A stretch of 40,197 bases of DNA, from assembly GCA_029242935.1 (NCBI GenBank), contig JAQWSX010000194.1, positions 1 to 40,197 on the forward strand. The letters run 5' to 3'. Positions 24,966 through 38,751 of the stretch are shown here, piece by piece (position 1 is the first letter of the stretch; each line of letters starts with the position of its first letter). Under the pieces are notes generated by a model that did no database searches, was not told the DNA's origin, and was given only the letters and a program-made list of their open reading frames with translations. The position numbers and the translations under genes are program-made. This DNA comes from Akkermansiaceae bacterium. GTDB lineage: Bacteria; Verrucomicrobiota; Verrucomicrobiia; Verrucomicrobiales; Akkermansiaceae.

Positions 24966-27404
24966 TCATCGCTTCGGAGTAAAGTCCCAAGGTTTCGTTT
25001 TCTCGCCGAGCTTTTCGAGAAAGGCGCCAGATGAGAAGGCTAGGAAGAGTGCGGCGTCGCCTTTCTTGTGGCGGTTTAGGGAGTAGATTTTTTTCATTGT
25101 GGGCACAGCTTCCTTGGCTTGCAAACCAAGGAGTTCGATCGCGCGGCAGGCACGGAGTGCGACAGGCCAGCTTGGGTTTTCTAGTTCATTGATGAGCACC
25201 TCGATGGCTTTCTTCGAGTAGCGACTTTCTGCGGCCAACCAACCCGCAGCTTCGATACTGGCGTCGACCTTACTTTTCTGCCCGACGTAGCGGGAGGCAT
25301 CATCTTTATGTTTATCATTTGGCCGAGAGGCTTTGAGGGCGGTGATAACCCAAAAATTGATTGAGGGATCGTCATCCCTGAGAAATTTGAGGGCGGATTC
25401 GGCGTCTCTTCCAACGGTATCGGCGACATTCCAGATTCGATCAAGATTGAGCTTTCCGTTCCGAGCAAGGTCGGCAATGGCTTCTCCATTCTTCTTAACC
25501 AAATCAGCCATGACCCCTTCAGGTAGGCACCCTACGTCCCGAGTTTGCTTGCGAATTCTTTGGAAAGCTCGCTGGGCTTTTTCGAGCGAAACCCGCTGAG
25601 TGTTGCTCATTTCTTCTAGAGCAAGATTACGGGTGTTCTTAGGATCAGCGACGCAATCATAAAACTCAATCGGGGCCCGCCGTGGTGAGAGATAGTGAGC
25701 TTGTTCGCTTGAAAGGCGCATCCCAGTCTTGAGCGAATAATTGGTAATTTCATTCCGAATTTCACCCAAGTCTGAGAAAACTGAAGGCTGGTTCCAACCG
25801 AGAGATGGGTGGTAGTTTCGGATGTAAAGCCAGCGTTCGTTACGGACCGAGCGGGAGCAGTCGAAGACTTCGTCGACCCGGTCACGGGCCCCATAAACCC
25901 ACCCACGTTTGTTTTTTTGATCGAGGAAGTTGTGTCCCTGCATGTAGGTCGGTGCATCGATCCCACAAAGCGCGAGCACGGTGGGCGCGAAGTCGACAAA
26001 GGAAACCAACTTATCAGTTTTGCTGCCGGGATCTCCCGACCCGGGAACGAGGTGCTGCCATTTTTTTGGCACTCTAACCATGAGGGGAACCCGCATTCCA
26101 GAGTCGGTAAGAAGTCGCTTGTGACGTGGCATCCCGGAGCCGTGGTCAGAATAAAAGAAAACGATGGTGTCTTCAGTTAGCTTGTCTTTTTCCAGCTCAG
26201 CGAGAATACTTCCGGCATTGCGGTCCATTAGAGTGACACAGTCATGGAAACGGGCGAGTTCTCGTCGGATTAAGGAAGTATTGGGATAATAAGAGGGGAC
26301 TCGAACTTTGTTCGGGTTGTGTATTTCGTCGGGAGAAAGCTCCGCTTGGATCTCCTTTTTGAATACCGGGTGAGGCCAGACCATGGTGCGCGATTGGTGG
26401 GTGGTCATGTCGTTAAATACCGCAAAGAAAGGCTGACCCTTTTTGCGAGTCCGCCAGTGAGCCGTCGAGTTTGATTCAACCCACGAATTTTTGGTGAGTC
26501 GTCCTGCATTTGCGGAGTTGTAGTCAGTTTTGACGTTGTTCGTCGTGTGGTAACCAGCTTCGCGAAGATATTGCGGGAAACCTATTACTCCGCGGGGGAG
26601 CGGGAAGGCAGAGCGCATTTGCCCGGTTCCAGTCGTGGAAGGATACATTCCGGTGATGAGGCAGGAACGTGAGGGAGAGCAAACCGGGTAGGCTGCAAAG
26701 GCGTGGGTGAAAAGAACACTCTCCTTGGCGAAGGCATCAAGATTTGGAGTGCTTGCATTGGGGTGTCCGTAGCAACCGAGAGCGGGACTGAGATCCTCGG
26801 CGACGATCCAGAGGATGTTGGGGCGCTCAAGAGATGAGGTTTTAGTGTCGAGCTTACGGACGCGAATTTTACGAAATTTCACAACGCCACCTTTGCCGTG
26901 ATGCTGAATTCCAAAGTAGCCCTTGAGTTGCTTTTCCTCACGAATGTCGGCGATGGGGTTGCCATTCACGAAGGTCTCAATACGATTGCCTTGAGCGATG
27001 ACGCGAAAGTGATTCCACTGGCCTTCTTTAAGCGTTCCTTTCTTCTTTGTGAGCCAGCCACCAAGCCCAATTCCATAAATTCCGCCGGGAGCTTTACGAT
27101 CAATCTCGATTTGATAACCTTTCGGTTTTCCTTTTGCTCCCGAGCACCGAAATGCGAGGCCGGAATTGAACCCTGGTTCCTTGGGAAGAAAAACCTCGAG
27201 TTCGGCTTCGAAATCACTCATTTCAATCTTGGAGGTGACCCATACATTGGTCCTCGAGAGAAGGTGGAGTTCGCCGTTAATGGCTTCGAATTGCTCGACT
27301 TCGGCGCGTGGAGTCCAATCTTTGGTTGATTTTCCGTCGAAGAGTTCAATCCACTCGGCATGGAGTGGCAAAATGGCGAATGCAGTGAGCAGGAACGATC
27401 GCAT
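24966..27404 (-). CDS. Fusion of DUF1080, sulfatase and HEAT-like repeats
   Basis: This 812-residue protein has a signal peptide (MRSFLLTAFAILPLHA) and three parts. Residues 18-185 are a DUF1080 domain (WIELFDGKSTKDW, NSGLAFR, WNHFRVIAQGN), a jelly-roll fold linked to hydrolysis of 3-keto-glycosides or to glycan binding. Residues about 194-640 are a type I sulfatase with the formylglycine site CSPSR (Cys242), metal-binding ED (203-204) and SDHGSGMPRHKR. Residues about 690-800 are HEAT-like helical repeats (NPSWPVALRACRAIELLG). It would remove sulfate esters or N-sulfates outside the cytoplasm, resembling heparan N-sulfatase-type enzymes. The single-chain combination suggests attack on a sulfated glycan. 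The gene is co-directional with the next sulfatase, 247 bases away. Confidence 0.85.
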   Translation of the reverse strand: MRSFLLTAFAILPLHAEWIELFDGKSTKDWTPRAEVEQFEAINGELHLLSRTNVWVTSKIEMSDFEAELEVFLPKEPGFNSGLAFRCSGAKGKPKGYQIEIDRKAPGGIYGIGLGGWLTKKKGTLKEGQWNHFRVIAQGNRIETFVNGNPIADIREEKQLKGYFGIQHHGKGGVVKFRKIRVRKLDTKTSSLERPNILWIVAEDLSPALGCYGHPNASTPNLDAFAKESVLFTHAFAAYPVCSPSRSCLITGMYPSTTGTGQMRSAFPLPRGVIGFPQYLREAGYHTTNNVKTDYNSANAGRLTKNSWVESNSTAHWRTRKKGQPFFAVFNDMTTHQSRTMVWPHPVFKKEIQAELSPDEIHNPNKVRVPSYYPNTSLIRRELARFHDCVTLMDRNAGSILAELEKDKLTEDTIVFFYSDHGSGMPRHKRLLTDSGMRVPLMVRVPKKWQHLVPGSGDPGSKTDKLVSFVDFAPTVLALCGIDAPTYMQGHNFLDQKNKRGWVYGARDRVDEVFDCSRSVRNERWLYIRNYHPSLGWNQPSVFSDLGEIRNEITNYSLKTGMRLSSEQAHYLSPRRAPIEFYDCVADPKNTRNLALEEMSNTQRVSLEKAQRAFQRIRKQTRDVGCLPEGVMADLVKKNGEAIADLARNGKLNLDRIWNVADTVGRDAESALKFLRDDDPSINFWVITALKASRPNDKHKDDASRYVGQKSKVDASIEAAGWLAAESRYSKKAIEVLINELENPSWPVALRACRAIELLGLQAKEAVPTMKKIYSLNRHKKGDAALFLAFSSGAFLEKLGEKTKPWDFTPKR

Positions 27405-30271: not shown

Positions 30272-31585
30272 CTAAGGTCGTGGTTGCTGCGAACAATTTT
30301 GGATTTTCATCTGGATTTTGCTGATCAAGTTTCCGCATTGAAGGAGGAAGATTGAGAATGACTGATCGCTTCGGAGTTCTTCGTGGGTGAAGCGAGTGAG
30401 GGCTTCCAATTTAATCTCGGTGACCCGATCCAGATAGTTTTTAAGCGTATCAATATCAGTGGTTTCCATTTGAGCACGCTCCACCTCAAGGGTGTTATTG
30501 AGGAAGATGTCCAACTTGTCTTTTTGCTTCTGGATCATTTTCGCTTGTTGGTCTTCCCGTTTCTTCTTTCTGCGGGTCCAGAGGAGATAAAATCCAGCGG
30601 CTACGGCTACTGATAGTTCTTTGAATGCTACTAAGGTTTCGATCATATTAGCAATTTGACTGATGTGATCAGGCGGATTGAAAAAGGTCCGAGATTCGAG
30701 GTTGAGGGCTAGAGGCGACTTTTTAAGGGCGTCTCCTTTCGAAATCATGGTTGGAAATTTGAGCGCTAATCCCCCGTCGTAAACCGCTTCAAGGGTCTTT
30801 TCGATGAGGAGTTCGTTCTCGCCCTCTTGGACGACAAGCAAAGCTGTTGTGGCCACCGATGGAATGCTCTCGGGTGGGATCGAAGGTCCCTCGCGGTAGA
30901 GTCCGCGAGGAATCTCGCTGAGATGGAAAACGGGATCCTTGGTCACGATGGCTTCTGAACTCTCAACTGAGAGTAACTGGAAGTGGCCACTCGCGAGCAT
31001 GCTCTGGAGGTCGCGGTTCATTAAGCCGGTGGTGACGATGGCCGCTTCAATTGTTTCGTGCTTTAGGAGGTCCTTAAAATAGACATCATTAGTGGTGATG
31101 ATGTCCTTTGCGATGCCATAATGCTTCAAAATTCTCAGCGCGCTGGATTGCATTCCGGATCCTTCAGGACCGATAATAACCCGGTGGGATTTGAGGCCAT
31201 AAATAGACTGAATGGAGGAATCGGTACGGGCTACGACATGCACCACTTCAGGGTAAAGTGGAGCAATCACCGAGAAATTATCAATCTTTCGGGAGCCGCT
31301 TTGGATGATGGCAAGATCTACTTTGCCCTCACTTAAAAGCTTGGCATTTTCCCCTGAACCTTCTGTTTCGATGATGATGACATCGCACCCAGTATTTTTT
31401 TCAAGTGCCCTTTCAAGTGCCTTGCCAAATTCGTGATAGAGGCCCCCTTTGTTTGCGGTGGCAATCCGGATTGTTTTGGGGAGAGTTTCTCGCGTGGCGA
31501 ACCAAACAGCGATCGAAATTAAAATGATCGCGACTGGAATAAGGGCAAGCCAGCGGCGCCCGGTTTTGAGATAGTCTATCGGCAT
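30272..31585 (-). CDS. TAXI-type solute-binding protein anchored to the membrane with cytoplasmic coiled coil
   Basis: This 437-residue protein begins with a membrane segment (about 13-30) and then a TAXI (TRAP-associated extracytoplasmic immunogenic) solute-binding domain: TIRIATANKGGLYHEFGKAL, TEGSGENAKLLSEGKVDLAI and VIIGPEGSGMQSSALRIL are typical. A second membrane segment at about 315-338 is followed by a basic stop-transfer (RRKKKRE) and about 95 cytoplasmic residues forming a coiled coil and helices. No TRAP permease gene is adjacent. Instead of a transporter subunit it may be a ligand sensor that signals across the membrane, or the receptor of a distant TRAP permease. It is convergent with the DUF1080 gene. 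Confidence 0.75.
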   Translation of the reverse strand: MPIDYLKTGRRWLALIPVAIILISIAVWFATRETLPKTIRIATANKGGLYHEFGKALERALEKNTGCDVIIIETEGSGENAKLLSEGKVDLAIIQSGSRKIDNFSVIAPLYPEVVHVVARTDSSIQSIYGLKSHRVIIGPEGSGMQSSALRILKHYGIAKDIITTNDVYFKDLLKHETIEAAIVTTGLMNRDLQSMLASGHFQLLSVESSEAIVTKDPVFHLSEIPRGLYREGPSIPPESIPSVATTALLVVQEGENELLIEKTLEAVYDGGLALKFPTMISKGDALKKSPLALNLESRTFFNPPDHISQIANMIETLVAFKELSVAVAAGFYLLWTRRKKKREDQQAKMIQKQKDKLDIFLNNTLEVERAQMETTDIDTLKNYLDRVTEIKLEALTRFTHEELRSDQSFSIFLLQCGNLISKIQMKIQNCSQQPRP

Positions 31586-33999: not shown

Positions 34000-35406
34000 T
34001 CACATCGGAGCAATTCTCCGGCTGCCGACATCAGTGGTCTTCATGACATGGTCATTGAAGCTTTCCAGGATGAGCCGGTTTTTGATTTCGGCAGAGACTG
34101 GATCGTCCCAGAGGTTTTCGAATTCATTGGGATCGGTTTCCAGATTAAAGAGCTCGCCCAGACCGTTGCGATGATAGACGACCAGCTTGTATTTTTTGGT
34201 GCGATACATCGTGGCGAAGGATGCGTTGCCATTACAGAATTCTTTCGCGAGGGCGTCGAAGTATTCGGAACGAATGCTATCGCGATGGTAATCGGTCGGC
34301 GCATCACCACTCAAGATAGGCCGTAGGCTCATGCCTTGAAAATACTCGGGAAGTTCTATGCCAGCAAAATCCAAAATGGTCGCGCTCATATCGAGAAGTT
34401 CGACAAGGGCATCACTTTGCACGTTGGCGGCGATCGAGTCCGGGCAGTTGAAAATGAGCGGTACGCGGACTAGGCCGTCGTAGAATCGGCATCCTTTGAG
34501 CAGGAGACCATGATCACCGAGTGATTCTCCGTGGTCACTGGTGAATATGATGATGGTGTTTTCGCGTTCGCCGGTTTCGTCGAGTCGCTGAATGATGCGT
34601 GCTAATTGATCGTCGATGAGGGCGATCATGGCGTAGTAAAGAGCCTGGAGTTTCTTTGCTCCTCGCTCCTTTGGAGTCAGCGCTTCGGTCTGAAAATCGA
34701 CGGGTGCAAGCTTGGCCTGTGCAGCAAGATCAGACTCGCGAAAATGCGGGCCGGGCATATTTTTGGGGTCGAATTTATCGGCGTATTCCTTCGGCGGAAT
34801 GAAAGGAGGGTGTGGATCGTAGGGATTGATGTTGAGCATCCATGGTTTGTCGATGGCCTGGGCTTCATCGAGAAATTCCAGCGCACGCTCGGTGGCCCAA
34901 GTAGTCTGGTGAAATTCGGCGGAAACACGTTCTTCACTCTCACGCATAGCATCGAGATCGCCTCCCTTTGCTTTGACCCAATTGGCATAGTCATGTCCTT
35001 CTTTCCAATCATCGCGGGGAGCGTGGCTGAATTTCCAGAAAGTGAAACCGTCATCGAGTCTTGGCTCGGTGCGTTTGCCGGAGCTTTGCAGGTGAAATTT
35101 TCCGATGAGTCCACAATGGTAGCCGGCTTCGGCGACCAGCTTGCTGATGAGGGGCGGGTGGCCTTTGAATGACTCGTTGCCATTGCGCGTGTTGTGCGCG
35201 CGAGTGGGGTAGAGGCCGGTCATAAAACTCGTTCGGCTGGGGGTGCAAATGGGGCTTTGGCAGTAGGTGTGAGTGAAAGCAGTGCCGCCTTTGACAAGGG
35301 CGTCAATGGTCGGAGTCTGTGCATGCGAATTACCGAGTGCCCCGATTGTGTCAAAGCGCTGTTGGTCAGTACAATACCAGAGGATATTCGGTTTTTGAGT
35401 CGTCAT
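34000..35406 (-). CDS. Sulfatase without signal peptide (predicted cytoplasmic)
   Basis: This 468-residue type I sulfatase starts directly with MTTQKPNILWYCTDQQRFDT, so the first metal-binding strand is at the N terminus and no export signal is present. The formylglycine motif is CTPSR (Cys54) and the second metal site is FTSDHGESLGDHG. Cytoplasmic members of the family, such as choline sulfatase, act on small imported sulfate esters. The ATG is three bases after the stop of tctA, so it belongs to the tripartite-transporter operon and very probably desulfates the imported compound. The substrate cannot be read from the sequence. Cys54 would have to be matured in the cytoplasm, by an anSME-type or other enzyme not in the window. 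Confidence 0.87.
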   Translation of the reverse strand: MTTQKPNILWYCTDQQRFDTIGALGNSHAQTPTIDALVKGGTAFTHTYCQSPICTPSRTSFMTGLYPTRAHNTRNGNESFKGHPPLISKLVAEAGYHCGLIGKFHLQSSGKRTEPRLDDGFTFWKFSHAPRDDWKEGHDYANWVKAKGGDLDAMRESEERVSAEFHQTTWATERALEFLDEAQAIDKPWMLNINPYDPHPPFIPPKEYADKFDPKNMPGPHFRESDLAAQAKLAPVDFQTEALTPKERGAKKLQALYYAMIALIDDQLARIIQRLDETGERENTIIIFTSDHGESLGDHGLLLKGCRFYDGLVRVPLIFNCPDSIAANVQSDALVELLDMSATILDFAGIELPEYFQGMSLRPILSGDAPTDYHRDSIRSEYFDALAKEFCNGNASFATMYRTKKYKLVVYHRNGLGELFNLETDPNEFENLWDDPVSAEIKNRLILESFNDHVMKTTDVGSRRIAPM

Positions 35407-35409
35407 AGA

Positions 35410-36891
35410 TTAGGCGGAGGAATTTGAATCTTTGGTGGGTGAATTGGCACGTCGCTGACGTAGGGACCAGAATAAAAGAAGGCCAGCAATGATCAAAAAG
35501 GAAAGCGAGCCTAGACGGGTTAGGAGTGGCAACCAACTTCCGCCGGAGCTCATGAGGCCAGTGGCTATCGATTCCTCGCCAAGGGGTGCGAGCACGAATC
35601 CAATTACGAGTGGTGCGAGCGGGATACGCCAGCGTTCGAGTAAAAACCCAGCGACTCCGAATGAGATCATTACCCAAACATCAAAGTAACGGTTTGCTAG
35701 GGCGAACGAACCGAGGACACAAAACGTGGCGACGATGGGAATCAAGGTGTGATGTTGGATACGGGCTAATTTGGCAATCCATCGGGCGCTGAGAAGCATC
35801 AAAAAGAGCATTGCAACATTTGCCCAAAGGTAGGATGAAATGATGGTGCCCACGATCTTTGGATCGTTTGCGAAGAGCATGGGTCCCGGTTGCAGGCCAT
35901 GGATCACAAAGGCTCCTAGTAAGATGGCATCAATGACACTACCTGGAATTCCGAGCGCGACCAGTGGGACTAACGCGCCTCCAACAGTGGCGTTGTTGGC
36001 GGATTCGGAGGCGATGATACCATCATCGCACCCGGTGCCAAATTTCTCAGGATGCTTTGAGGTGGCGCGGGAAGTCGAGTAGGCAATTAAAGAACCAATG
36101 TTAGCACCAATACCGGGCAGGATACCAATTCCGGTTCCGATGGCGCTTGAGCGTAGGAGGTTGAGCCAATGTGTTTTCCATTCTTTTAGCTTGAGAGTGA
36201 TGGGGCCGTTAATCTCGGTGCTGATGACTTGACTGGTTTCACAAGGGGGCGGTGAAAAGACGCGACTGAGAGCAAAGAGCCCGATAAGGACAGGTAGGAG
36301 TTTTAGGCCGTCATCCATCGCGCTAAAGCCAAAGGTAAGTCGTAGTTCGCCGGTTCCGGGCGCCGTGCCCGGAAGGGCGCAGAGGATTCCCAAGAAGCAT
36401 GAGAGAAGTCCCTTTGGAAGCGAGTTTCCGCTCACGCCGACTACCAGCACCAAGGACATCACGACCAGCGCAAAGAATTCCCACGGGCCGAGCACGGTTG
36501 AGAATTCCGCGATTGGTTTGGCGACCAAAGCAAGAACCGCCCAAGAGATGAGGCCGCCGATAAATGACGCTCCGATGCCGAGACCAAGTGCTCGGCTGGC
36601 CCGCCCCGAACTGGCCATGGGGTAGCCGTCGAGGGTTGTGATGATCGAGGCTGGTGTGCCCGGCATTCTCAGTAGGGTTGCGGTGATCAAACCCCCGCTT
36701 ACTGATCCGACATACATCGCAACGAGCAAGGCTAGTGCGCTTTGGCCATCCATGCTGAAGGTCAGCGGCAAGGTGAGTGAGATCAGCATGGCCCCGGTAA
36801 GGCCGGGGATCGAACCCACGGTGATCCCTAGAGCGGTGCCCAACATGACAAGCATGATGAGTGAGGGTTGTGAGAGGACTTCGAGAATCAT
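35410..36891 (-). CDS. tctA: Tripartite tricarboxylate transporter large permease TctA
   Basis: This 493-residue protein has about 11-12 membrane helices and the TctA hallmarks: GSIPGLTGAMLISLTLPLTF near the N terminus, MYVGSVSGGLITATLLRMPG, its inverted-repeat counterpart GILPGIGANIGSLIAYSTSR, and the conserved GVPGS-like segment LGIPGSVIDAILLGAF. TctA is the transport channel of sodium-coupled uptake systems for carboxylates. It lies between the TctC-TctB fusion (7 bases upstream) and the sulfatase (3 bases downstream), so the three form one operon. Confidence 0.93.
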   Translation of the reverse strand: MILEVLSQPSLIMLVMLGTALGITVGSIPGLTGAMLISLTLPLTFSMDGQSALALLVAMYVGSVSGGLITATLLRMPGTPASIITTLDGYPMASSGRASRALGLGIGASFIGGLISWAVLALVAKPIAEFSTVLGPWEFFALVVMSLVLVVGVSGNSLPKGLLSCFLGILCALPGTAPGTGELRLTFGFSAMDDGLKLLPVLIGLFALSRVFSPPPCETSQVISTEINGPITLKLKEWKTHWLNLLRSSAIGTGIGILPGIGANIGSLIAYSTSRATSKHPEKFGTGCDDGIIASESANNATVGGALVPLVALGIPGSVIDAILLGAFVIHGLQPGPMLFANDPKIVGTIISSYLWANVAMLFLMLLSARWIAKLARIQHHTLIPIVATFCVLGSFALANRYFDVWVMISFGVAGFLLERWRIPLAPLVIGFVLAPLGEESIATGLMSSGGSWLPLLTRLGSLSFLIIAGLLLFWSLRQRRANSPTKDSNSSA

Positions 36892-36898
36892 CGTGTGA

Positions 36899-38200
36899 TC
36901 AGGGGAGGTCGACGACTAGGAATTTGGTGAAAATGAAGAAGGAGCCCCATGCGATGGCGATACCGGCCCCCGTGACTTTTAAAATGGCGCGAGGGCTGCG
37001 TGCTCCGATGGCCGCCGCCAACACTGGGATGAAGATCATGGTGGCGATTGGATAAGGGAGATCAATCACCTGCATCGAGAGAAGATAGCCAGACAGAATC
37101 GCGAGAGTGAGGGCGCCATGGCGCCAATCAAATGGGAGATCACTATTTTCTTCTTTATTGGTGGAAGCTTGGAACAGGACCCAGATGCCGATGCCAAGAA
37201 TCGAGACAAGCATTGGAACTACTGGGTCGGGCAAACCTCGGTATTGAACCAAGGCGATGTCCTGAAATTCTCCTTCTCTTGCGGCGAGGTGGGCATCGAG
37301 TTCATTACCACGAAGAAAGAGCGGCGCTGTTTTAGTCTCAGCAAGTTTTTCGCGAACGTAGTCGGTTGTCATGGCTGCTTCCAACATGTCGGCGATCCGT
37401 TCAACCGCCGCGGTGGGGGTTGATTTGGGGGCCCACCAATAATGAACGTGGGGCATGACGACATTGTAGCCGAGCTCACGGCCTGTCGGAACGTTTGGCA
37501 GGGCCGGATGACGTTCCGGCCCGAGGTAACCGATGGCTCGCACGCCACTCCCTTCGAATCCAATGAATTCGGAGAGTGAAAAAGGAGTTACGTCGATATG
37601 TTTCCCGATCAGATCGTGTCGACGTTTCGATCCGCCGCCACTTGGGACCATGCGGAATTTTGTTTCTCCACCCGCGCTTTCTAGCCGGCGTCCCGCAAAG
37701 TGAGTTGGCGTTCCCGGAGCCATGCCGAATAAGATCGAGTCGGGGTTTTCAGCTGCTGCTTTGAGCAAGCCGTTCAGTTGCTGGAAGGGAGAATCGTCGC
37801 GCACACAGATGACGAGGTTGGACTCTGCAGTGGCAGCAATCGGCTGGAAGGCCTCCGGACCATAGGTGACTCGCCCGGCATATTTCGAAGTAAAAATGCC
37901 TTCATGTAAATTGAGAATCGTGTGACCGTCCGGCGCAGCATTTCGCACGCGACGACTTCCAATCGTTCCGCCTGCTCCCGGAACATTTACGACCACCAGT
38001 GGTTCGGGAAGCAGGTCGTGATCTTCGACCGACTTCTGAATGATGCGGGTGAAGGTATCGCTATCGCCACCGGGTCCGAAAGGGACGACAATTTTGAGAG
38101 GCTTGCGAGGGAACTCGGCGCTTCCGGAGTTGACCTCGTCATCGTGGCACGAGGTCGTTACAAAACCGAAGAGAGCGCCAAGAAGGATCGTGCGAAACAT
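36899..38200 (-). CDS. tctC-tctB: TctC-TctB fusion: solute-binding protein joined to small permease subunit
   Basis: One 433-residue chain covers two subunits normally made separately. Residues about 30-310 are TctC: PLKIVVPFGPGGDSDTFTRI, VNVPGAGGTIGSRRVRNAAPDGHTIL and ALPNVPTGRELGYNV are family signatures. Residues about 322-433 contain four hydrophobic helices (starting at PVVPMLVSILGIGIWVLF) as in TctB, though shorter than the usual subunit of about 140-160 residues. The N terminus (MFRTILLGALFGFVTTSC) is a signal peptide with a weak lipobox. The binding protein would thus be tied to the inner membrane next to TctA instead of diffusing in the periplasm. It is the first gene of the operon. 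Both domain assignments are strong; whether the fusion is common in this group is not known to me. Confidence 0.88.
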   Translation of the reverse strand: MFRTILLGALFGFVTTSCHDDEVNSGSAEFPRKPLKIVVPFGPGGDSDTFTRIIQKSVEDHDLLPEPLVVVNVPGAGGTIGSRRVRNAAPDGHTILNLHEGIFTSKYAGRVTYGPEAFQPIAATAESNLVICVRDDSPFQQLNGLLKAAAENPDSILFGMAPGTPTHFAGRRLESAGGETKFRMVPSGGGSKRRHDLIGKHIDVTPFSLSEFIGFEGSGVRAIGYLGPERHPALPNVPTGRELGYNVVMPHVHYWWAPKSTPTAAVERIADMLEAAMTTDYVREKLAETKTAPLFLRGNELDAHLAAREGEFQDIALVQYRGLPDPVVPMLVSILGIGIWVLFQASTNKEENSDLPFDWRHGALTLAILSGYLLSMQVIDLPYPIATMIFIPVLAAAIGARSPRAILKVTGAGIAIAWGSFFIFTKFLVVDLP

Positions 38201-38249
38201 TGTTTAATTACTGATTTCCCAGTTTCTCGGGGTTACGTGCCGTCATGAG

Positions 38250-38262
38250 ACACTTTAAGTGT
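38250..38262. promoter_or_regulatory. 13-bp inverted repeat ahead of the tct operon
   Basis: ACACTT-T-AAGTGT is a perfect inverted repeat with a one-base centre, 50-62 bp upstream of the tctC-tctB start. This is where an operator of a dimeric regulator, for example a GntR- or LysR-type protein, would be expected. No regulator gene is adjacent. Confidence 0.4.
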
Positions 38263-38391
38263 AAGTGAACAAAGGAGGAAACTCCGGGAATTCTTAAATC
38301 GAAGATCTTTCTTCGCAAGCTTCTCTACCGAGATATCTAGAGCGAAGGAGGCATCTGATAAGGGAATTGTTTGCGTAAAGAGAAAGGACAA

Positions 38392-38425
38392 TCCCTGTTT
38401 CATATTCCAAGAGACTAAACAGGGA
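38392..38425. repeat. Hairpin with perfect 9-bp stem
   Basis: TCCCTGTTT at 38392-38400 and AAACAGGGA at 38417-38425 are exact reverse complements with a 16-base loop. A short GTTTTG run follows on the plus strand, so it might be a weak terminator or part of a small RNA. Nothing upstream on the plus strand needs terminating. Confidence 0.4.
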
Positions 38426-38559
38426 GTTTTGTGGGACCAATCTCTAACTCTCCGGGAGATGGTTTTAGAAGAGTGTCCGGGACCGGAAAGGTCTGCCTGA
38501 ATATCGCGCTTTGTCTTCGGTCGCAATTATAGATTAATTGGAGCTTATCCTCTTGCTCG

Positions 38560-38676
38560 ATGAGCCGCCGCTTCAGTGGAGCCCATCGTGATTTGGTTGA
38601 AGGCTGTTCGGCCTATGCTGAGGCCTACTTGCGTTGGGAAGTGGAAGAAGCGAATCAGATTTCCGTTCTTCGGTAA
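38560..38676 (+). CDS. Short open frame of 38 codons, doubtful
   Basis: An ATG frame encodes a 38-residue charged peptide (starting MSRRFSGAHRDL). A GGAG sequence lies 17 bases upstream, too far for a normal ribosome-binding site. It has no motif or recognisable relative. It may be a gene remnant or chance; it is recorded because nothing else occupies this stretch. Confidence 0.15.
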   Translation: MSRRFSGAHRDLVEGCSAYAEAYLRWEVEEANQISVLR

Positions 38677-38751
38677 ATTATTGTTCGCATTTCCCAGTTG
38701 TTGGCGATGTATTTAGGGATAGGTCGTGGAAGAAATACTAAGCAACGGGGG

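Follow-up and report, generated by a model that had tools for sequence, protein, structure and literature searches.

Organization of the locus

The subject of this report is a cluster of three genes on the minus strand of a 40,197-nucleotide stretch of DNA (contig JAQWSX010000194.1, assembly GCA_029242935.1), hereafter the window, from an Akkermansiaceae bacterium whose draft genome comprises 219 contigs and is 85.5% complete. A preliminary description of this DNA, made from the letters alone, had claimed a TctC-TctB fusion, a TctA permease and a sulfatase lacking a signal peptide, spaced by 7 and 3 bases, and the trio was confirmed by the open reading frames (ORFs), which are consecutive and separated by gaps of 7 and then 3 bases, and by their Pfam matches. 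The features of the locus are as follows.

36899-38200, minus strand: tctCB, a TctC-TctB fusion of 433 aa (Pfam TctC and TctB)
37205-37222, minus strand: approximate start of the TctB part, codons 327-332 of tctCB (Pfam boundaries)
35410-36891, minus strand: tctA, large membrane permease of a tripartite tricarboxylate transporter (TTT), 493 aa (Pfam TctA)
34000-35406, minus strand: S1-type sulfatase of 468 aa without a signal peptide (Pfam Sulfatase and SGSH_C)
35245-35247, minus strand: Cys54 of the sulfatase, the predicted formylglycine nucleophile in CTPSR (sequence and alignments)
35092-35100, minus strand: Lys103-Phe104-His105 of the sulfatase, in GKxH (alignments with 4upi, 4upl and 2vqr)

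Upstream of tctCB, positions 38201-38725 of the window hold no ORF longer than 110 aa.

A transporter with fused TctC and TctB

The product of tctA matches PF01970 over the full length of the profile (positions 1-423 of 423; 457.7 bits, E 4e-137). In the product of tctCB, residues 62-295 correspond to the binding domain (PF03401, TctC; 105.5 bits against a cut-off of 27), which also matches BugD and other solved TctC proteins (E 1e-33), solved terephthalate-binding proteins being among the matches, and residues 327-433 correspond to the membrane part (PF07331, TctB; 34.9 bits against a cut-off of 29.1), with overlapping hydropathy peaks at 327-424 that make up about four segments. The TctB match covers only positions 31-137 of the 137 of the profile, so the binding domain replaces the N-terminal stretch of TctB, where the first TctB helix is expected; this layout would fit a periplasmic domain leading into the next TctB helix. 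The N terminus of tctCB, with a lipobox-like TTSC, is likely an export signal; it lies under the hydropathy threshold in the window protein and above it in a relative (L041_6).

The transporter is therefore not made of three separate subunits, TctC and TctB being one ORF. Among the 85 TctC-type ORFs of the loci that we fetched, 60 have the long form (429-554 aa as called) and 15 a short form of 347-368 aa, the rest being cut by contig ends (6) or of other kinds (4). The short form, which has one C-terminal hydrophobic segment and adjoins a normal TctA (L060-L064, L186, L189, L191, L193, L195, L196, L198, L207, L215 and L219), appears to have nearly lost its TctB part. TctA and TctB are rarely fused in the TTT family, and the available passages of the review that reports this name no TctC-TctB fusion (PMC5812351). 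We read the fusion as a variant of the TTT family, with a predicted function in carboxylate uptake.

A sulfatase without an export signal

The sulfatase matches Pfam Sulfatase (E 9e-50) as well as SGSH_C; it starts with MTTQKPNILW, and the scan detected no hydrophobic segment in the protein. We fetched 80 relatives and excluded two without a usable frame (L175 and L195); in all of the remaining 78, a start codon occurs 2-7 codons upstream of the PN motif, so that a signal peptide would not fit behind the nearest start; the check suggested in the preliminary description comes out in its favour. In five of the 78, a start further upstream would include a hydrophobic window, and each of these five also has a nearer start, 3-6 codons away. 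Five exported sulfatases taken for comparison, one from the window and four from related loci, have 21-28 residues ahead of the PN motif and stronger hydrophobic windows. The accompanying statement that most sulfatases of this group are exported does not apply, as far as could be judged, to the solved enzymes closest to this one, namely choline sulfatase, in which Asp14 and Cys54 share their residue numbers with the window enzyme, so that there is no N-terminal extension (available passages of PMC5870055).

The CTPSR motif occupies residues 54-58, with Cys54 invariant in alignments of 15 and 50 rows. Furthermore, D14, Q15, N75, K103, H105, H199, D291, H292 and K304, the catalytic and metal residues as named after choline sulfatase in the available part of PMC5870055, are invariant in 50 aligned sequences, and the C-terminal RIAPM is invariant or nearly so among the relatives. 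The enzyme thus combines the C-x-P-S-R motif with the metal and catalytic residues of an S1 formylglycine sulfatase. An AF2 model built with 50 sequences has a mean pLDDT of 84, low at residues 461-468, and its best-matching folds are the phosphonate monoester hydrolases (PMHs) 2vqr and 2w8s together with the arylsulfatases SpAS1 and SpAS2, with a TM score of about 0.8. Lys103 and His105 align with the Lys/His pair of SpAS1 and SpAS2, whereas 2vqr has Tyr and Thr there, a PMH-type pair that the window sulfatase does not possess. As judged from the alignments, the active-site residues are arylsulfatase-type, not phosphonate-hydrolase-type, and hydrolysis of a sulfate ester is predicted from them. 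The enzyme scored 189.7 bits against the NCBIfam choline-sulfatase equivalog, under the cut-off of 433.45.

In the host genome, at its 85.5% completeness, there are five FGE-family matches, the best with 240.6 bits, and no anaerobic maturase over its cut-off. The best FGE-like protein (L248 1411-2484, contig C99) reads SYCLRYRPGAR, with Pro in the place of an expected second Cys. The same genome has 95 stretches that match the window sulfatase, and the nearest named relative of the latter (95% identity) comes from an Akkermansiaceae metagenome-assembled genome.

Conservation of the tct-sulfatase linkage

The association was examined in two samples, 239 genomes of the order to which the window belongs (the order sample) and the best 80 of 546 GTDB stretches encoding a sulfatase relative (the GTDB set), which overlap, several loci being the same contigs. 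Sulfatases of the window's kind are designated type A, and those of a second cytoplasmic clade, of about 31% identity, type B.

In the order sample, the TctC-TctB protein had matches in 35 of the 239 genomes, at 45 places, of which 40, the window not among them, were fetched with their flanks and 39 have a recognised TctC/TctCB or TctA. The next same-strand gene within 300 bp is a sulfatase at 16 of these 39 tct loci and at 7 of 228 control genes (neither tct nor sulfatase, more than three genes away on the same loci), which rejects chance adjacency; the tct-sulfatase pairing is not a chance arrangement. The neighbouring sulfatase is of type A at eight loci, of type A and cut by a contig end at one (L050) and of type B at four, type B being thus a same-strand tct neighbour in 4 of the 39 loci; at the remaining three it has an export-signal-like N terminus and is the sole sulfatase type beside the tct genes.

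In two genomes of the window's genus (L041 10025-11404 and L042 7386-8765) and in another genome (L046 3-1670), a second sulfatase opens the tctCB-tctA-sulfatase operon, and that of L041 and L042 has an export-signal-like N terminus.

The conserved tctCB-tctA-sulfatase neighbourhood for which a search had been recommended was found in the GTDB set, in which TctA lies directly upstream of the sulfatase, on the same strand and within 400 bp, in 46 of the 80 best relatives (the position of one sulfatase, L195, being taken from the GTDB scan). TctCB is encoded on the same locus in 42 of these 46, and three of the other four are near a contig end. The linked relatives bear the names of Verrucomicrobiota, Planctomycetota and Lentisphaera (Lentisphaera-like genomes, f44, are counted in the window's own phylum by genome classification), and adjacency is seen at 64-95% identity; in particular, the linked genes are present in Lentisphaera marina IMCC 11369 and Rhodopirellula sp. 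SM50.

Co-occurrence when the genes are apart

The evidence to which we give most weight is the co-occurrence of the two genes in one genome. A whole-genome search of 34 genomes with an unlinked sulfatase found TctA in 31, with a match of at least 53% identity in 29 (two of the 29 are partial and two have an internal stop). A sulfatase of at least 61% identity was found in 32 of the 239 genomes of the order sample (one match is partial, and G007, which has a 47% relative only, was left out of the count), and TctA at E<=1e-120 likewise in 32 of 239. Both genes occur in 30 genomes, the sulfatase alone in two (G196 and G208, 69% and 63% complete), TctA alone in two (G081, and G214, where the sulfatase is cut by a contig end) and neither in 205 (Fisher p 2e-33, ignoring relatedness), and the 8 genera, out of 48, that have the one also have the other. 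In a sample of 387 genomes of the phylum, TctA was present in 8 genomes overall and in six of the six with a type A sulfatase.

On the tree of TctA (77 rows), the label "beside type A sulfatase" takes 5 changes, against 23.3 in shuffles; the main sulfatase-free branches are nested among the linked ones, with one distant sulfatase-free row at the midpoint root, and 18 of the 20 sulfatase-free rows come from genomes that have a type A sulfatase elsewhere, two of these 18 having been fetched because of that sulfatase. Both the TctA tree and the sulfatase tree were built with a quick method and gave long-branch warnings, and they serve for coarse grouping only.

Other sulfatase lineages and other phyla

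Plasmid records yielded further examples; 11 of the first 14 sulfatase matches and all of the first four TctA matches were opened. Among the 11 sulfatase records, the only TTT operon is that of Falsirhodobacter algicola, an isolate from the red alga Grateloupia, where unfused tctB-tctA-tctC genes are followed in one operon by a type A-like sulfatase (46% identity) and a type B sulfatase, 53% identical to the type B enzyme of bacteria of the Planctomycetes-Verrucomicrobia-Chlamydiae (PVC) group. Two of the 11 sulfatases (Salipiger and Chelativorans) lie directly beside genes for a sugar ATP-binding cassette (ABC) importer and two more (Rhizobium and Phyllobacterium) are one aminotransferase gene away from such genes; no importer was seen directly adjacent to the remaining six. 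In four further relatives that were opened, the next genes encode a sugar ABC importer in three and a second sulfatase in one.

The two closest plasmid TctA proteins (51.5% identity), from Paracoccus seriniphilus and Chelativorans, adjoin sulfatases, and one of the two sulfatases of P. seriniphilus is of type B (57%). The third closest is beside a mandelate-racemase-family enzyme, an alpha-hydroxy acid oxidase and a thiamine pyrophosphate enzyme, and the fourth beside a 2-hydroxyacid dehydrogenase. A further sulfatase family is represented in Salipiger abyssi by an operon with the order sulfatase-tctC-tctB-tctA, near which lie an FGE-family gene and another TctC accompanied by a sulfatase, and a member of the same family stands ahead of tctCBA in Chelativorans, which has two TTT loci in all. 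As a whole, the island on the S. abyssi plasmid (NZ_CP015091.1 185254-208349) holds several sulfatases, two TctC genes and a full TTT, together with a sugar ABC importer, an FGE-family gene and sugar-acid-type enzymes.

In the sulfatase tree, types A and B fall in separate starred clades, both of which contain TTT-linked members from PVC bacteria and from Alphaproteobacteria, and two more TTT-linked clades are formed by Paracoccus/Chelativorans and Salipiger/Chelativorans sequences, all on long branches. The recurring theme is that of an inside-acting sulfatase beside an importer.

Neighbouring genes and the nature of the substrate

The Pfam search of selected genes flanking the PVC loci (30 and 10 proteins, a part of all the neighbours) gave no consistent pathway; it returned, among others, DUF1552/planctomycete cytochrome proteins, PQQ, NfeD, TatD, shikimate dehydrogenase and other sulfatases, and neither an aromatic nor a sulfolactate catabolic gene was recognised among the proteins submitted. 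One recurring neighbour is an amidohydrolase resembling L-fucono-1,5-lactonase, which scored 100 bits in a sulfatase-free operon and 78-89 bits near sulfatase-linked operons, against a cut-off of 400; by eye, and with the neighbours not run through Pfam, no fucose cluster surrounds the best lactonase-like gene of the host genome (216 bits). Moreover, in another sulfatase-free branch of the transporter, a convergent gene at L051, L055, L056, L058, L065, L067, L068 and L069 encodes a TIM barrel, whose best PDB match is 2zds, a putative DNA-binding protein, and whose second (E 9e-39) is 8ro4, a 2-hydroxy-3-keto-glucal hydratase; by this similarity, the TIM-barrel neighbour may hint at a 3-keto-sugar link. 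In the Salipiger abyssi locus, an IlvD/Edd dehydratase scores 897 bits to the galactonate dehydratase 7m3k, and a gene resembling 2-keto-3-deoxygluconate kinase is a second hint of sugar-acid metabolism.

The sugar-acid reading is based on the Salipiger analogue and on the sugar-type enzymes encoded next to those branches of this transporter that lack a sulfatase: the substrate class is perhaps a sulfated sugar acid (aldonate or uronate) in the first place and a sulfated aromatic or hydroxy acid in the second. This putative assignment, made by analogy, is the weakest step of our interpretation.

Elsewhere in the window, positions 30272-31585 (minus strand) encode a TAXI-type binding domain of the tripartite ATP-independent periplasmic (TRAP) transporters, with an N-terminal and a second (317-335) membrane segment and a tail of about 100 residues. 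No TRAP permease occurs among its neighbours in the window that were submitted to Pfam, and a relative of 61% identity is found near the same operon in a genome of the same genus (L041 2590-3942). Positions 24966-27404 (minus strand) encode a single protein in which a 3-keto-disaccharide hydrolase domain precedes a sulfatase domain and a weak HEAT-like match.

Proposed function and alternative explanations

The three genes probably form one unit for the uptake and desulfation of a sulfated organic acid, the nature of which we infer from the context. In such a unit, the periplasmic TctC domain, tethered by the fused TctB helices, would capture a small sulfated organic acid, which TctA and the TctB helices would carry over the inner membrane; the cytoplasmic S1 sulfatase, with Cys54 converted to formylglycine, would then hydrolyse the sulfate ester, and the freed acid would enter catabolism. 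The direction of transport and its energy coupling are presumed by analogy with the TTT family, and the linkage suggests that the imported compound is what the sulfatase acts on. This reading, already put forward in the preliminary description, is supported by the linkage in 46 of 80 relatives, by the lack of a signal peptide in 78 of 78 and by the close TctA present elsewhere in 29 of 34 genomes.

Several observations weigh against it. Sulfatase orthologues that lie away from tct genes are frequent, as 34 of the 80 in the GTDB set have no adjacent TctA; among the 31 genomes of the order examined for adjacency (G170 is outside this number), the type A sulfatase adjoins tct genes in 10 and not in 21. 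No tct gene occurs in the fetched stretch of 12 PVC relatives of about 44-52% identity (L150-L154, L156, L161 and L163-L167; the sulfatase of L151 was missed by the gene caller). Three of the 34 genomes with an unlinked sulfatase are without TctA at E<=1e-20, and two have it mainly at 38-40%; in the phylum sample, a close TctA is present in one (G535) of the nine genomes whose sulfatase relatives reach no more than 40-52%. Both the correlation of TctA and sulfatase distances (r 0.87, 34 loci) and the co-occurrence are in part a matter of shared ancestry. As regards the substrate, no catabolic gene is conserved beside the triad. The Salipiger abyssi sulfatase is only 23% identical to that of the window, NCBIfam assigns the dehydratase of that locus to dihydroxy-acid dehydratase (978 bits against a cut-off of 684), and the locus's gene resembling 2-keto-3-deoxygluconate kinase has 236 bits, under the cut-off of 400. 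Finally, alphaproteobacterial homologues often adjoin sugar ABC importers, so that the wider sulfatase family need not act on a carboxylate.

Different explanations of the locus can be weighed on the same evidence. The substrate might be an aromatic or simple hydroxy acid sulfate (a phenolic acid sulfate like zosteric acid, or a sulfated mandelate) instead of a sugar acid, a somewhat unlikely alternative: aromatic acids, terephthalate for one, are known TTT substrates (PMC5812351, available passages), terephthalate-binding proteins match the TctC domain and the third and fourth closest plasmid TctA lie beside hydroxy-acid genes, yet the Pfam-tested flanks hold no aromatic catabolic gene, and sugar-type enzymes, the lactonase-like amidohydrolase and the TIM barrel, recur. 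Alternatively, a phosphorus-containing acid might be imported, with the enzyme acting as a phosphonate monoester hydrolase or a phosphodiesterase. This assumption draws on the PMHs 2vqr and 2w8s being among the best folds, together with SpAS1 and SpAS2, and on the catalytic promiscuity of this enzyme branch (PMC12421950, available part). We hold it to be quite unlikely, since the enzyme has, invariant in 50 sequences, the Lys103/His105 pair of SpAS1 and SpAS2 in place of the Tyr/Thr of 2vqr, and since D14, Q15, C54, N75, K102, H104, H201, D296, H297 and K309 of choline sulfatase (PMC5870055, available passages) have counterparts, matched by position and motif and not by alignment, in D14, Q15, C54, N75, K103, H105, H199, D291, H292 and K304 of the window enzyme.

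Transporter and sulfatase could also belong to one regulon and handle different molecules, e.g., pieces of one sulfated polysaccharide. The genomes concerned are indeed rich in sulfatases, as the 95 matching stretches of the host genome illustrate, and an export-signal-like sulfatase opens the operon in two relatives of the same genus and is the sole sulfatase neighbour at three tct loci; nevertheless, the association is with particular cytoplasmic sulfatase clades and persists within genomes in which the two have separate locations, and a cytoplasmic sulfatase needs an intracellular substrate, which makes this explanation unlikely. It is very improbable, in our estimate, that the neighbourhood is a mere by-product of shared ancestry in sulfatase-rich genomes: related genomes do dominate the samples, and the distances of sulfatase and TctA are correlated, as they would be for any two genes inherited together, but a sulfatase follows 16 of 39 tct loci against 7 of 228 controls, adjacency extends over 64-95% identity in Verrucomicrobiota, Planctomycetota and Lentisphaera, the pairing recurs in Alphaproteobacteria, there with other sulfatases and with unfused tct genes, and the two genes co-occur in genomes where they are unlinked. 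The finding is real, and the support for it goes beyond what the window by itself could give.

Comparison with known systems and significance

Sulfolactate carries a sulfonate group in place of a sulfate ester. The tctCBA and slcHFG systems, the latter for 3-sulfolactate, likewise have TctA, TctB and a TctC-type binding domain, and slcHFG shows that a TTT is able to take a sulfur-bearing acid (PMC5812351); they differ from the window, in which TctC and TctB are one protein, and the available passages of that review mention no sulfatase partner. Choline sulfatase BetC of Sinorhizobium meliloti belongs to the same superfamily as the window sulfatase, with a corresponding active-site set and no N-terminal extension (PMC5870055, available passages), whereas the window enzyme is under the NCBIfam choline-sulfatase cut-off and has a TTT importer as its partner. 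The highest-ranking folds are those of the PMHs 2vqr and 2w8s, 2vqr differing by Tyr and Thr at the two aligned positions. By sequence and fold, the closest solved arylsulfatases are the dimeric SpAS1 and SpAS2 (4upi and 4upl), which share the Lys/His pair but are only about 26-28% identical to the window sulfatase, and for which we know of no natural substrate. The alphaproteobacterial clusters of a sulfatase with a sugar ABC importer contain signal-less relatives of 41-48% identity, beside the importer or one gene from it, and differ in having an ABC carbohydrate importer where the window has a TTT. Neither a tct-sulfatase pairing nor the phrase "cytoplasmic sulfatase" was found in the searches of open-licence PMC papers; two known parts are here joined in a pairing that these searches did not turn up.

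Much carbon is stored in sulfated marine polymers, and PVC bacteria have very many sulfatases, most of them without a known substrate; in the usual picture, desulfation takes place outside the inner membrane. It is possible to hypothesize, as an extension to which we give slightly less than even odds, that importing first and desulfating later is a general, undescribed strategy, in which a TTT, partly with fused TctC-TctB, is paired with at least four cytoplasmic sulfatase lineages in PVC bacteria and Alphaproteobacteria for the use of sulfated sugar acids, the freed aldonate or uronate feeding ketodeoxy-sugar-acid pathways. A conserved importer with an inside-acting sulfatase would represent a second route of desulfation, and orphan sulfatases and orphan TctC receptors would gain a shared substrate, as the ligand of the receptor should equal the substrate of the enzyme.

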